From an uncultured Clostridia bacterium (GTDB lineage: Bacteria > Bacillota > Clostridia > Christensenellales > CALMFG01), in assembly GCA_937863465.1 (NCBI GenBank), contig CALMFG010000188.1, positions 1 to 43,255 on the forward strand: a DNA stretch of 43,255 bases, in the 5' to 3' direction. The notes under the pieces were generated by a model. The model worked only from the letters and a program-made list of their open reading frames with translations, did not search any database and was not told the origin of the DNA. The position numbers and the translations under genes were made by a program. How positions within the stretch are numbered: position 1 is the first letter of the stretch; each line of letters begins with the position of its first letter. Positions 15,423 to 21,913 of the stretch are shown here, piece after piece.

Positions 15423-15518
15423 GCGGCTTACGGGAGATATGCCCTTGTAAAAAAGCCTGATTCGGTATAAAGTATTGCGTATAGATGGGTTTATTCTTTA
15501 GGATTGGAAGCGGAGCAC

Positions 15519-15797
15519 ATGATTGAAATCATCATCGGCGCGGTGGTGGGCATCGTCTTTGGCATCATACAGGTTCTGATTTTAACCCGTGTGGTGGAAG
15601 CGGTGACCGGCACCGGCAACGCGAAACCGGGCGGATTCATCTGGATTGTCCCGCAGTTTCTGGTGACGGTAGCGGCGTTTGCGGCTTTGGGGTTCTATTC
15701 CAATAAAGCACTGCTGGCGGCGGCCGGGGGTTTAATCATCGCTACATTTGTGGTCTGGATGATACGGTCGAATAAACCTTCAGGAAAGGAAGAATAG
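15519..15797 (+). CDS. Small three-TM membrane protein in the AtpI position of the ATP synthase operon
   Basis: MIEIIIGAVVGIVFGIIQVLILTRVVEA... with three hydrophobic segments; ends 1 nt before atpB; ATG 15519 preferred over TTG 15504. Confidence 0.7.
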   Translation: MIEIIIGAVVGIVFGIIQVLILTRVVEAVTGTGNAKPGGFIWIVPQFLVTVAAFAALGFYSNKALLAAAGGLIIATFVVWMIRSNKPSGKEE

Positions 15798-15798
15798 T

Positions 15799-16482
15799 AT
15801 GGGTTCAGGTTTTTCTGTTGAGATTAACCCCACGCGATACAATATTCTGGGGCTGGATATCGGCGTTACGGTCATTACAGCATACTGCGTCAGTCTGGCG
15901 TTGCTGATATTCGGTCTGATTGTACGCTTTGTCCTGGTGCCCAGATTCAAGGATCAACCCAGAAAGATCCAAAACATCCTTGAACTGATTGTGGAAAGCA
16001 TCAATAAGTTCTCCACGAATACGGCGGGGGAATATGGCAGCAAGCTGGCGGCATACGGACTGACGCTGGCGTTTTTCCTGGTGGTGTCCGGCTTATTGGA
16101 GCTCATCACCATCCGTGTACCTGGAACGGATATCAATTTTACCATCGCGATTTCCCTGATGAGTTTTATCATCATCAACGTCATGGGACTGATGGAAAAG
16201 GGTATCTGGGGCAGAATAAAGCATTACTTAAAGCCAAACCCGATTATCGGATTCTTTCGTCTGGTATCGGATTTGATGATCCCCGTTTCGCTCGCCTGCC
16301 GGATGTTCGGCAATCTGCTTTCGGGACTGGTCATCATGGAACTGGTTTACTTCGCGATGGGCAATTTCGCCGTGGGCATACCGGCGGCCTTAAGTGTGTT
16401 CTTCACCCTCTTCCATGTGCTGATGCAGACCTACGTGTTCCTGATGCTGACCTTCTCGTTTGTGCATGAGGCGACCGAGTAG
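15799..16482 (+). CDS. atpB: F-type ATP synthase subunit a
   Basis: VPGTDINFTIAISLMSFI, SLACRMFGN (essential Arg), MQTYVFLMLTFSFVHEATE. Confidence 0.95.
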   Translation: MGSGFSVEINPTRYNILGLDIGVTVITAYCVSLALLIFGLIVRFVLVPRFKDQPRKIQNILELIVESINKFSTNTAGEYGSKLAAYGLTLAFFLVVSGLLELITIRVPGTDINFTIAISLMSFIIINVMGLMEKGIWGRIKHYLKPNPIIGFFRLVSDLMIPVSLACRMFGNLLSGLVIMELVYFAMGNFAVGIPAALSVFFTLFHVLMQTYVFLMLTFSFVHEATE

Positions 16483-16557: not shown

Positions 16558-16776
16558 ATGGACGGATTAGTTGCAATTGGTGCAGGTATTGCGGTTTTGA
16601 CCGGTTTCGGCGCAGGTATTGGTATCGGTGTGGCCACATCCAAGGCATGTGAAGCGATTGCGCGTCAGCCTGAAGCGATGGGCAAAATCACTTCGACGCT
16701 GCTCTTGGGTTTGGCGCTGGCCGAATCCACCGCGCTGTATGGATTTGTTATCTCCATCATGATGATTTTCAAATAG
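16558..16776 (+). CDS. atpE: F-type ATP synthase subunit c
   Basis: 72-aa hairpin: helix 1, ARQPEAMGKI loop, LALAESTALYGFVI helix 2. Confidence 0.97.
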   Translation: MDGLVAIGAGIAVLTGFGAGIGIGVATSKACEAIARQPEAMGKITSTLLLGLALAESTALYGFVISIMMIFK

Positions 16777-16833: not shown

Positions 16834-17310
16834 ATGGAAATACATTGGCAGGATATCATACTTCACGCAGTCAATATCGTCATACTGTTTGTTGGTCTGC
16901 GTATGCTGCTCTACAAACCAATCAACAAGTTTTTACAGGCGCGGGAAGCGCGGTTTGAGGGCAGAATTTCGGATATCGAACAGAAGGAAGCCGAGGCTGC
17001 CAAGCATAAGCAGGAGTATGATGCGCTTCTTAGCAGGGCGCACAGCGACGCGGCTGAGATTATCAAGCACTCGTCTGATTTGGCCAAAGACCACGCCAAG
17101 GAAGTGGTCACCAAAGCGGAAGACCAAAGCCGCGATATGATTTCGCGCGCCAAAAAAGATATCGAGAACAAAAAGCTTCAGGAGAAGGAAAACCTGAAAA
17201 CCGAGATCACCAATATGGCGGTTCAGATTGCGGGCAAAGTTCTCCAGCGTGAAGTGACCATGGACGACAACAAGAAAATCATTGATGATTTCTTTACAAA
17301 GGTGGGCTAG
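16834..17310 (+). CDS. atpF: F-type ATP synthase subunit b
   Basis: N-terminal TM and coiled coil, C-terminus AVQIAGKVLQREVTMDDNKKIIDDFFTKVG. Confidence 0.95.
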   Translation: MEIHWQDIILHAVNIVILFVGLRMLLYKPINKFLQAREARFEGRISDIEQKEAEAAKHKQEYDALLSRAHSDAAEIIKHSSDLAKDHAKEVVTKAEDQSRDMISRAKKDIENKKLQEKENLKTEITNMAVQIAGKVLQREVTMDDNKKIIDDFFTKVG

Positions 17311-17313
17311 AAG

Positions 17314-19128
17314 GTGAGCATTAAGGGAAGATTGAGAACGGCGGTAGATTTCGACGAAACCTCCATCGCGTCCATCAAACAGCAGTTTGAAGAGATGGTC
17401 GGGGAGCCTATCGATTTCTCTGTCGATAAAGACCCGAATATAATCGGCGGGTTTATCGTATATGTCAAAAACAAAGTATACGATCGGAGCATAAAGACTC
17501 ATCTGGATGAGATTAAAAAATACATTCAGGAGGTCTATGAAACGCCATATAAGGATGACGAATACGTGGAAAGTGGATTTGAGCTGAACGCCGAAGCGTT
17601 TGGTAAAATCACCAAAGAACGCATCTACGAATATGAAGAAGACCGCACAAAGAAGGATGTGGGAATGGTCACATTCAGCGGCGACGGCGTGGTGCAGGTC
17701 AAGGGTCTTGACAACTGCAAATACGGCGAGCTCTTGCAGTTCCAGAACAATGCTTTTGGCATCGTCATGAATCTGGACAAAGAGAAAGTCGGCGCGGTTC
17801 TTTTAAGCGCGGCCAGCGAAGTGGCCGAAGGTTCGCCCGTCCGAAACACCGGCAATGTGGTTCAGGTGCCCGTGGGAGACAAGTTGCTCGGGCGCGTCAT
17901 CAACCCCATCGGTATTGCGATGGACGACAAAGGCAAGCTGCACATCGAGCGGCATCGGACGATTGAACATGAAGCACCGAGCATCATCGACCGTCAGGCG
18001 GTTCGTGAACCTCTGGAAACCGGCATTATGGCTGTGGATGCGATGATTCCCATCGGCAAAGGCCAGCGCGAGCTGATTATCGGCGACCGCCAGACCGGCA
18101 AAACGGCGATTGCGATTGATACCATCATCAACCAGCGCGGCAAGGACGTCATCTGCGTCTATGTGGCCATCGGCCAAAAGGCCAGCACGGTGGCCAGCAT
18201 CATCAGCACGCTGGACGAAGCCGGCGCGATGGACTATTCGGTCGTGGTGGTTTCCACAGCTTCCGACTCGGCGCCGATGCAGTATATTGCGCCCTATTCG
18301 GGTTGTGCGATTGCTGAAGAATTTATGGATAAGGGCAAGGATGTACTGATCGTCTATGACGATCTTTCGAAGCACGCGGTAGCCTACCGCACCATGTCCC
18401 TGCTGCTCCGCCGTCCGCCGGGACGCGAAGCTTACCCGGGCGACGTTTTCTATCTGCATTCCAGACTGCTGGAACGTGCGGCCAGAATCAGCGACACCAA
18501 AGGCGGCGGATCCATCACCGCTCTGCCGATTATCGAAACCATGAGCGGCGATATTTCGGCGTATATTCCGACAAATGTTATTTCCATCACGGATGGACAG
18601 ATATATCTGGAAAGCGAGCTGTTTAACGCGGGCGTTCGTCCGGCCATCAACGTGGGACTTTCGGTTTCTCGCGTAGGCGGTTCGGCGCAGACTAAGGCAA
18701 CCAAAGCGGTGGCGCATCGTTTGCGTCTGGATTTGGCACAGTTCCGCGAACTGGCGGTTTTTGCCCAGTTCGCATCCGACTTGGACAAGGCCACACAGGA
18801 CAGCCTGTCGCATGGCGTGCGGCTGACCGAAGTGCTGAAGCAGGGACAGTTTAGACCGATTCCGATGTCCACGCAGGTCATGATGCTGTATGCCGTGGTC
18901 AACAAGCTTTTAAAAGATGTGCCCATTGAGCATATTCGGACACTGATGCCCGAACTCATCGACCATATTGACGCCAATTATCCGGGCGTTCGCATGGAGA
19001 TTGAGAAGACCAAAGATTTGCCTGAGAACGTCGCCAAGCTGATTGAGCGGGCGACCAGCGAATATGTGCCGATTTTCTTCAAACTGCACAACATCACGCC
19101 GCCTGAAAAAGAGGGTGAATCCGCATGA
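17314..19128 (+). CDS. atpA: F-type ATP synthase subunit alpha with N-terminal delta (AtpH) C-terminal-domain-like extension
   Basis: GTG start with AAAGGTGGG upstream. First ~70 aa (LRTAVDFDETSIASIKQQFEEMVGEPIDFSVDKDPNIIGGFIVYVKNKVYDRSIKTHLDEIKKYI) resemble AtpH C-terminus; alpha from about residue 90 (GDRQTGKTAIAIDTIINQ, YDDLSKHAVAYR). Confidence 0.93.
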   Translation: MSIKGRLRTAVDFDETSIASIKQQFEEMVGEPIDFSVDKDPNIIGGFIVYVKNKVYDRSIKTHLDEIKKYIQEVYETPYKDDEYVESGFELNAEAFGKITKERIYEYEEDRTKKDVGMVTFSGDGVVQVKGLDNCKYGELLQFQNNAFGIVMNLDKEKVGAVLLSAASEVAEGSPVRNTGNVVQVPVGDKLLGRVINPIGIAMDDKGKLHIERHRTIEHEAPSIIDRQAVREPLETGIMAVDAMIPIGKGQRELIIGDRQTGKTAIAIDTIINQRGKDVICVYVAIGQKASTVASIISTLDEAGAMDYSVVVVSTASDSAPMQYIAPYSGCAIAEEFMDKGKDVLIVYDDLSKHAVAYRTMSLLLRRPPGREAYPGDVFYLHSRLLERAARISDTKGGGSITALPIIETMSGDISAYIPTNVISITDGQIYLESELFNAGVRPAINVGLSVSRVGGSAQTKATKAVAHRLRLDLAQFRELAVFAQFASDLDKATQDSLSHGVRLTEVLKQGQFRPIPMSTQVMMLYAVVNKLLKDVPIEHIRTLMPELIDHIDANYPGVRMEIEKTKDLPENVAKLIERATSEYVPIFFKLHNITPPEKEGESA

Positions 19129-19997
19129 AGAACATGGGAGATATAAGGCATTCGATGCGGGCGATCAGCGATACCGAGCAGATCACCAAAGCGATGCACC
19201 TGATATCGACTTCAAAAATGAAGCGCGCAGTTTCAAACTACGAAAAGAACCGATACCATTTCGACCACGTACAGGCGGGCTTAAAGGATATTCTGGCGCA
19301 TTCGTCCGACCTTTCCCACCCATATGTCAAACACAGCGAGGGCGGTTCGGCGGCGTTTGTGGTCATCGCGGGGGATAAGGGCCTTTGCGGCGGGTATAAC
19401 CACAATGTGCTGAACTTTGCGCTGGCCGAAATGAAAAAGAACAAACAGCAGTATATCCTGACGGTCGGTCAGGAAGCGCGCGCGTTCTTTGAACGCAAAG
19501 GGTATATGATCGACGTTGAATTTCTGCATATCGCGCAGAATCCGTCGCTGGCCAACGCCCGAAACATCACGAACGATATTTTGGAGCTTTACGATTCGGG
19601 GGTTATGGATGAAGTGTACGTGGTGTACACCAAGTTCTATTCCCCGTTAAGGCAGGAGCCGCACATTATTCAGCTTTTGCCCGTGGAGGAATCCAACTTT
19701 GAGGACATCGAAACCGAGTACACATATTCCGCGGACTTAAGCTTTCACCCTTCGGTCAAGGAGGTTTTTGATCGGATGGTACCGCAGTATATTATCGGTC
19801 TGATGTACGGCTGTCTGGTTCAGGCCTATGCGTCCGAGCACAGCGCGCGGATGACCGCGATGGAAAACGCCACACAAAACGCGGACGAGATGCTGGCCAA
19901 GCTCTCACTGGAGTATAACCGGGCGCGTCAGTTTAACATCACCACCGAGATTTCCGAAATCATCGGCGCGATGGAAGCATTAAGCGACAGCTTTTAA
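19125..19997 (+). CDS. atpG: F-type ATP synthase subunit gamma
   Basis: DIRHSMRAISDTEQITKAMHLISTSKMKRA N-terminus; ITTEISEIIGAMEAL C-terminus; ATGA overlap with atpA. Confidence 0.97.
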   Translation: MKNMGDIRHSMRAISDTEQITKAMHLISTSKMKRAVSNYEKNRYHFDHVQAGLKDILAHSSDLSHPYVKHSEGGSAAFVVIAGDKGLCGGYNHNVLNFALAEMKKNKQQYILTVGQEARAFFERKGYMIDVEFLHIAQNPSLANARNITNDILELYDSGVMDEVYVVYTKFYSPLRQEPHIIQLLPVEESNFEDIETEYTYSADLSFHPSVKEVFDRMVPQYIIGLMYGCLVQAYASEHSARMTAMENATQNADEMLAKLSLEYNRARQFNITTEISEIIGAMEALSDSF

Positions 19998-21493
<1,496 letters not shown>

Positions 21494-21494
<1 letters not shown>

Positions 21495-21913
21495 TGGCGA
21501 ATACCTATCATTTGGAGATTATCACACCCGAAAAAGTGTTTTTCCAGGATGAGGTGATTTCCTGCATATTCCCGTCCGAAGACGGGTTCATGAGCATTCA
21601 GAGAAACCATGAAGCTCTGGTGGCGGCGGTGGTTATCGGCCCCGTCAAGATTCATCTAAAAGACGGCACCTGGGTGGAGTGCGCCACAACCGAGGGCTTT
21701 TTAGAGGTGCGCCCGGACGAGACCATGATGTTTGCCCAGACGGTGGAATGGCCGGATGAGATTGACATGAACCGTGCTCAGGAAGCCGCCGAGCGGGCCA
21801 AGGAGCGGCTGCGGCAGAAACAGAGCTGGAACGAATACCAGCAAAGTCACATTGCGCTGGCACGCGCGATGGTGCGCCTGAAGGTGGGCCGCAAGAACCG
21901 AAATATCGAATAA
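21494..21913 (+). CDS. atpC: F-type ATP synthase subunit epsilon
   Basis: LEIITPEKVFFQDEVISCIFPSEDGFMSI; 1-nt overlap (TAGTG) with atpD; two-helix C-terminal domain. Confidence 0.93.

Follow-up and report, generated by a model that had tools for sequence, protein, structure and literature searches.

An ATP synthase operon in which the delta subunit gene is missing and the alpha subunit gene begins with a piece of delta raises the question of how the peripheral stalk is held on F1, and of how many stalks such an enzyme carries. To our knowledge, F-type synthases of known structure are all taken to possess one peripheral stalk and one a subunit, and the ion/ATP ratio is therefore read from the size of the c-ring alone. 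The locus lies in a window of 43,255 nucleotides (the whole stretch of DNA analyzed here) from an uncultured bacterium of the order Christensenellales.

The fused atpA gene and its operon

The operon lies on the forward strand in the order I-like/B/E/F/A/G/D/C, as given in a preliminary description of the locus, with atpH missing between atpF and atpA. All other subunits are encoded, every gene is intact, and a and b are single genes, as in ordinary operons. The atpI-like small membrane protein (97 aa; 15504 to 15797) was assigned by ORF position and composition, its match to Pfam ATP-synt_I being not significant (E = 0.34). It is followed by atpB (a subunit, 227 aa; 15799 to 16482), which matches NCBIfam a-subunit models and contains the ACRMFGN motif with the essential Arg; by atpE (c subunit, 72 aa; 16558 to 16776), found with a c profile built for this analysis (130 bits) and carrying its carboxylate in ..LAESTALYG..; and by atpF (b subunit, 158 aa, a normal length; 16834 to 17310), with scores of 69 bits against PF00430 and 81 bits against TIGR01144 and a TAG stop at 17308 to 17310. 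Downstream of the fused gene, atpG (gamma; 19125 to 19997; TIGR01146, 269 bits) overlaps the atpA stop by 4 bases, and atpD (beta, 467 aa; 20091 to 21494) and atpC (epsilon, 139 aa; 21494 to 21913) were recognized from their ORFs and from beta and epsilon profiles built for this analysis.

The fused atpA gene occupies positions 17314 to 19128 on the forward strand, begins with GTG, and encodes a product of 604 aa; translation could alternatively begin at a TTG, codon 7 (position 17332). Residues 1 to 94 of the product match positions 104 to 171 of the 172-position PF00213 OSCP profile (52.1 bits, E = 1e-13, with a gathering threshold of 22.3), the aligned part lying at residues 4 to 70, and several NCBIfam delta models independently match the same 94 residues over their C-terminal ~65 positions. 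The delta (OSCP/AtpH) C-terminal domain (CTD) is assigned to residues 1 to 74 (17314 to 17535) and carries the motif DPNIIGGF..YDRS. A linker of residues 75 to 92 (17536 to 17589) and the alpha N-terminal helix of residues 93 to 106 (17590 to 17631) come next; the helix is the counterpart of the delta-binding helix of canonical alpha and keeps 7 of 18 consensus positions. In the linker region (window 17527 to 17539), an AGGAGG is followed by an ATG at 17537 that is one base out of the alpha frame, probably by chance. The alpha body, consisting of the barrel, nucleotide-binding, and C-terminal domains, and the stop codon extend from 17632 to 19128. The part of the protein after the extension is a complete alpha (TIGR00962, 758 bits; cut-off, 484), in which PF02874, PF00006, and PF00306 are all matched and the P-loop GDRQTGKT at residue 257 is intact. 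By its full length, its P-loop, and its three domains, the product belongs to the F-type alpha subunits. Its relation to OSCP/AtpH is partial: the CTD is present by both profile and fold, with b binding predicted, but the N-terminal six-helix domain (NTD) that sits on the F1 crown is missing, and the CTD shares one ORF with alpha rather than forming a separate polypeptide.

The preliminary description had read the same fusion from the sequence and proposed an OSCP/AtpH HMM search of the extension, a comparison of its AlphaFold model, a genome search for a distant atpH NTD, and a survey of relatives. It also named two findings that would speak against it, an extension without an OSCP match and a complete atpH gene elsewhere in the genome; both were examined and neither was found. 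Its further claim, that the stator is tethered through alpha, holds in part: the covalent link follows from the sequence, whereas tethering within the assembled enzyme is a prediction drawn from that link.

Absence of the delta N-terminal domain

The TAG stop of atpF is followed by a single codon (AAG) and then by the GTG of the fused gene, in a shared frame. This gap leaves no space for a delta NTD, which has ~105 residues. In the genome assembly of the window (2.17 Mb, 97% complete, 209 contigs), a whole-genome search returned one OSCP match and one atpA, both being the fused gene. A profile restricted to the NTD found no match in this genome at E ≤ 0.1, and the same profile matched eight of eight full-delta genomes at E ≤ 1e-29. 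In 12 CTD-only genomes it gave no match at E ≤ 0.05 and a single match at E = 0.065, which lies inside a 1254-aa frame. The loss of both the standalone atpH gene and the NTD, as first described, is therefore upheld genome-wide.

Two other arrangements were considered and rejected. In a six-frame search, the OSCP match ran back through the atpF stop, as if an NTD were hidden at the C terminus of b; however, b is no longer than usual, b models cover it through to the C terminus, and the NTD-only profile has no match, so the OSCP match into atpF is an alignment extension. In addition, b and alpha of the window are in frame with one stop between them, which could permit a b-CTD-alpha product by readthrough; this is attributed to chance, since in relatives the frames often differ or the ORFs overlap.

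Predicted structure and comparison with known systems

An AlphaFold2 model of the fused protein, built from an alignment of 37 natural sequences (mean pLDDT, 76), shows a β-α-β-β-β-α domain at residues 1 to 74 (pLDDT 64 to 82), a disordered linker at 75 to 92 (pLDDT <50), a helix at 93 to 106, and then the alpha barrel. The best PDB match of the model in Foldseek is chain I of 9jc1 (584 columns, TM 0.81/0.87, rmsd 4.1 Å), which is an engineered delta CTD-alpha chain. In that work (Ueno et al. 2025; PMC12229609), residues 2 to 104 of Bacillus PS3 delta were deleted and the CTD was joined to alpha by a short linker. The resulting delta-deltaN-alpha enzyme carries as many as three stalks and three a subunits, and its H+/ATP ratio is 5.8, compared with 3.0; gel stoichiometry gave about two stalks on average from single gene copies, and by cryo-EM 15, 51, 26, and 8% of the particles had 0, 1, 2, and 3 stalks (PMC12229609). 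The authors argue that the delta NTD, which lies on the threefold axis, limits the enzyme to one stalk; in PS3, the NTD is contacted by two alphas and the CTD by one (PMC12229609).

At the gene level the window belongs to the same delta-deltaN-alpha class, having a CTD-alpha fusion, no NTD, and no second delta or alpha, so that in both enzymes the CTD is linked to the alpha N terminus and all alphas are fused. They differ in that the enzyme of the window is natural, ~50% identical, and known here from its genes, with a longer disordered linker and a diverged alpha N-helix. The architecture also has a natural precedent, which the preliminary description overlooked together with the engineered one: the Discussion of PMC12229609 names Acidaminococcus fermentans, along with two other UniProt entries (G4Q3K6 and A0A1I2C5T3), as having fusions of the same type, with the same predicted multi-stalk outcome. 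In that Discussion they appear as isolated cases, briefly mentioned and without a survey, whereas the Christensenellales examined here contain intermediates and repeated origins. A literature search on the ATP synthase of Christensenella and on natural multi-stalk F-type enzymes yielded PMC12229609 alone, and within the literature searched no stoichiometry, structure, or activity of a natural fused enzyme was found.

Two other systems share single features with the locus. The b-delta fusion of mycobacteria and Gordonia (PMC5709465; PDB 7jg5) likewise links delta covalently to an adjacent stator subunit, but it is the full delta, placed on b and not on alpha, and hence still one per F1; in the window, b has its own ORF of 158 aa, closed by TAG. 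The N-ATPase (alternate F1Fo; PMC5706428) shares the absence of a separate delta gene, but it dispenses with delta altogether, its b is longer, and its genes are arranged differently, while the alpha of the window carries a delta CTD. The N-ATPase models score below their cut-offs in the window (TIGR03324, 610 of 750.5; TIGR03321, 58 of 225; TIGR03306, 69 of 302).

Loss of the NTD and diverse fusion forms in relatives

Among 247 genomes of the order that are at least 90% complete, 115 have an OSCP match; about 20 of these matches are full length, and nearly all others start near profile position 95 to 105. Annotation of 133 operon loci revealed that most of the Christensenellales F-ATPases examined lack the NTD and have either standalone CTD genes of 69 to 96 aa or repeated CTD-alpha fusions. 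The median distance from b to alpha is 553 bp where delta is full and 229 bp where the CTD stands alone, while b and the fused ORF are -4 bp apart, and this shrinkage confirms the loss of the NTD. CTD-alpha fusions occur in about 70 operons, including those of the window and of cultured Christensenella isolates (L030 and L031), such as Christensenella intestinihominis and Christensenella sp. Marseille-P2438. Many of the surveyed genomes may be metagenome-assembled. The assembly of the window is fragmented, which would allow for a fusion created by sequencing or binning error or by a degenerating operon; this explanation is very improbable and already contradicted, given that diverged copies of the same fusion are present in isolate genomes and in so many operons and that the genes of the operon are all intact.

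In a second, phylum-wide sample of 398 genomes, further stop-free CTD-alpha ORFs of 589 to 659 aa were found in families f55, f80, f104, f121, f122, f139, f147, f194, f203, and f231, some of them in a second operon. In many full-delta genomes, delta and alpha share a frame with 1 to 3 stops between them, and few mutations may therefore suffice for a fusion. Other forms include a standalone tandem CTD (L138) and, in L246, a full delta accompanied by an additional CTD. At L184:3892-5934 and L212:3904-5934, two similar CTDs in tandem precede alpha (CTD-CTD-alpha); the partner b is long (233 to 249 aa), and there would be six CTDs per F1. In L228, a b of 257 aa carries the delta CTD at its C terminus (L228:5653-6426, genome G250) and the alpha is highly diverged; this b-CTD is a CTD-only analogue of the actinobacterial b-delta. 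A nearly full delta, with NTD and CTD, is fused to alpha in five genomes (L236, L237, L238, L239, and L243), which would put three NTDs at one crown. In genome G369, a full-delta-alpha operon stands beside a second, normal operon with a full delta.

Fusions of a b-like subunit, the delta CTD, and alpha

In 13 genomes from three genera of one family of the order (f10; L186, L195, L211, and L267 to L276), a b'-type subunit, the delta CTD, and alpha are encoded by one ORF. These ORFs are 736 to 791 aa long and stop-free, with identities down to 44% over the N-terminal region, and in 12 of the 13 genomes they are the sole atpA detected. In L186, whose product has 746 aa, the first ~150 residues match b (PF00430, 33.9 bits; cut-off, 28) and are followed by the CTD and alpha; the homologous stretches of L195 and L211 score below the PF00430 cut-off, and their b' identity is assigned through homology to L186. 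The predicted model has two long helices, a CTD, and alpha, and 9jc1 chains are again the top matches. A separate short b gene of 141 to 143 aa lies upstream in the loci examined. If the product is not cleaved, every alpha would be continuous with a membrane anchor. These triple fusions are the strongest comparative argument for more than one stalk, bearing on the relatives and not on the window itself.

Phylogeny and the relaxed alpha N-helix

The alpha-core tree, the second one built, comprised 144 rows (LG+C20, SH-aLRT only, quick search). L248, at a contig edge, had been removed for it, and L049 (Treponema) was no longer counted as CTD-alone, since it has a delta NTD that scores poorly. 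NTD presence changes at least 6 times on the alpha tree and the fused or unfused state 17 times; the CTD-alpha label changes at least 10 times on starred branches alone. The main clade of Christensenellales (70 rows, 99*) mixes standalone CTDs with CTD-alpha fusions and has no NTD anywhere, in keeping with an NTD that disappeared before repeated fusions took place. Another clade (27 rows, 98*) has full-delta-alpha fusions beside CTD-alpha fusions, in keeping with a fusion that preceded the disappearance of the NTD. We infer these directions, because gains and losses look alike in the counts. The window clusters with family f21 (96*) and next with Christensenella (95*).

The N-terminal helix of canonical alpha, approximately NLKPEEISSIIKEQIKNY, contacts delta. 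Its pairwise identity is 0.49 in operons with a full delta (25 sequences), 0.20 with a standalone CTD (31 sequences), and 0.16 in CTD-alpha fusions (66 sequences), compared with 0.67, 0.62, and 0.65, respectively, for the rest of alpha. For the alpha barrel, another part that faces the crown, identity declines from 0.58 with a full delta to 0.42 with a standalone CTD and 0.41 in CTD-alpha fusions. The drop in the N-helix is the pattern expected from a lost NTD contact, and differences in overall divergence among the groups may explain part of it.

Number of peripheral stalks

By its genes, the enzyme of the window is an F-type synthase whose delta is cut down to the predicted b-binding CTD and joined to the N terminus of alpha. 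Since F1 contains three alphas, the fusion predicts three docking sites, and not the one re-anchored stalk of the preliminary description, which had the fusion right but overlooked this multiplicity. Each alpha of alpha3beta3 would carry a CTD, giving the F1 crown up to three sites for b2 stalks; with the threefold axis free of the NTD, more than one stalk could dock, each with its own ion-conducting a subunit. The number of ions per turn would then be the c-ring size multiplied by the number of a subunits, and an anaerobe living on a small gradient would have either a synthase that runs on less ion-motive force or a pump that moves out more ions for each ATP.

We infer the stalk number from several observations and consider multi-stalk function the best explanation of the fused enzyme, with a probability of roughly 0.6. 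It draws on the precedent set by the engineered enzyme, on the triple fusions, and on the loss of constraint in the alpha helix; on the engineered triple-stalk chain 9jc1_I as the solved structure closest to the AlphaFold model; on the lack of an NTD and of a second atpA in the genome; and on the repeated origin of the fusion. It would fail if some alphas lost their CTD, that is, if an internal start or proteolysis of the linker yielded CTD-less alpha, returning the enzyme to a ratio of ~1:3 and to one stalk. The linker is predicted to be disordered, and codon 85 of the fused gene in the window is an in-frame GTG preceded by a weak AGGA, besides the out-of-frame AGGAGG near 17527. The 73 fused operons show no conserved internal start from which unfused alpha could be made, however: the linker lacks an in-frame start in 19 of them, and in just 3 is such a start preceded by a Shine-Dalgarno sequence of at least 5 bases. 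The length and sequence of the linker are highly variable, and no start with a Shine-Dalgarno sequence is conserved at the alpha junction of the triple fusions. A mixed alpha population is accordingly improbable, and three CTDs per F1 are the default expectation.

Even with three CTDs, an F1 could hold a single stalk if a and b were in short supply. In that case one alpha would anchor one b2 through its CTD in place of delta, as a tether after the loss of the NTD, and the other two CTDs would be unused. The single a and b genes of the operon agree with this, and the persistence of standalone CTD genes without an NTD indicates that CTD docking is viable without the NTD in either case. By analogy, the engineered enzyme may also point this way, as most of its particles have 0 or 1 stalk by cryo-EM (PMC12229609). 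In addition, the five full-delta-alpha fusions keep an NTD on each alpha, and fusion alone does not imply symmetric docking. On the other side, the engineered enzyme has about two stalks and a doubled H+/ATP ratio from single gene copies (PMC12229609), the b'-CTD-alpha form puts a membrane helix on each alpha and is hard to reconcile with one stalk, and the NTD was lost several times rather than once. We therefore regard a single stalk as rather unlikely and retain multi-stalk function.

A broader proposal, whose chances we judge to be about even, is that natural multi-stalk F-type synthases with several a subunits form a widespread, repeatedly evolved class in Bacillota that arose through loss of the delta NTD. 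One Christensenellales lineage would then have three stalks built in, each alpha being continuous with its own b-type anchor and CTD, and both c-ring size and the number of a subunits would tune the ion/ATP ratio. What is new here is the loss of the NTD in most of the Christensenellales F-ATPases examined, with standalone CTDs and repeated CTD-alpha, tandem, b-CTD, full-delta-alpha, and b'-CTD-alpha forms. The natural intermediates (standalone CTD, full-delta fusion, tandem CTD, and b'-CTD-alpha) are useful for learning what sets the stalk number, and the multi-stalk claim can be tested directly in Christensenella isolates in culture.

Physiological context

RnfC is encoded in 10 of 10 genomes checked, including that of the window (G000:C121:9023-10324, 543 bits), which suggests that an Rnf-made ion gradient may be available to these bacteria. 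The genome of the window also encodes an A/V-type ATPase subunit A (G000:C159:398-2128, 942 bits), and its F-type enzyme need not be the main synthase. A search of two Christensenella genomes detected no A/V-type subunit A, which leaves the fused F-type enzyme as the sole rotary ATPase detected in them. The c subunit of the window keeps its carboxylate (AESTALYG) and lacks the helix-1 glutamine, which is a feature of classical Na+ c-rings. A higher ion/ATP ratio, if true, would suit a fermenter with a weak gradient by allowing ATP synthesis at low force or the export of more ions per ATP. If two or three stalks are present, the c-ring rule would not hold for a large set of anaerobes of the gut, whose minimum gradient for making ATP would have been overestimated.

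Long b and c subunits in relatives

In L198, L202, L213, L184, and L212, b is 233 to 259 aa long and its second part repeats a b-like C-terminal stretch, for example ...ATEKLL...LYDKF and ...ATEKML...IYDKF in L213, which suggests a possible internal duplication. Genes for c of 120 to 176 aa were considered as doubled hairpins and rejected as such on inspection; those of 123 to 176 aa (L208, L213, L214, L221, and L227) encode a long N-terminal extension resembling a signal peptide, followed by a single hairpin.
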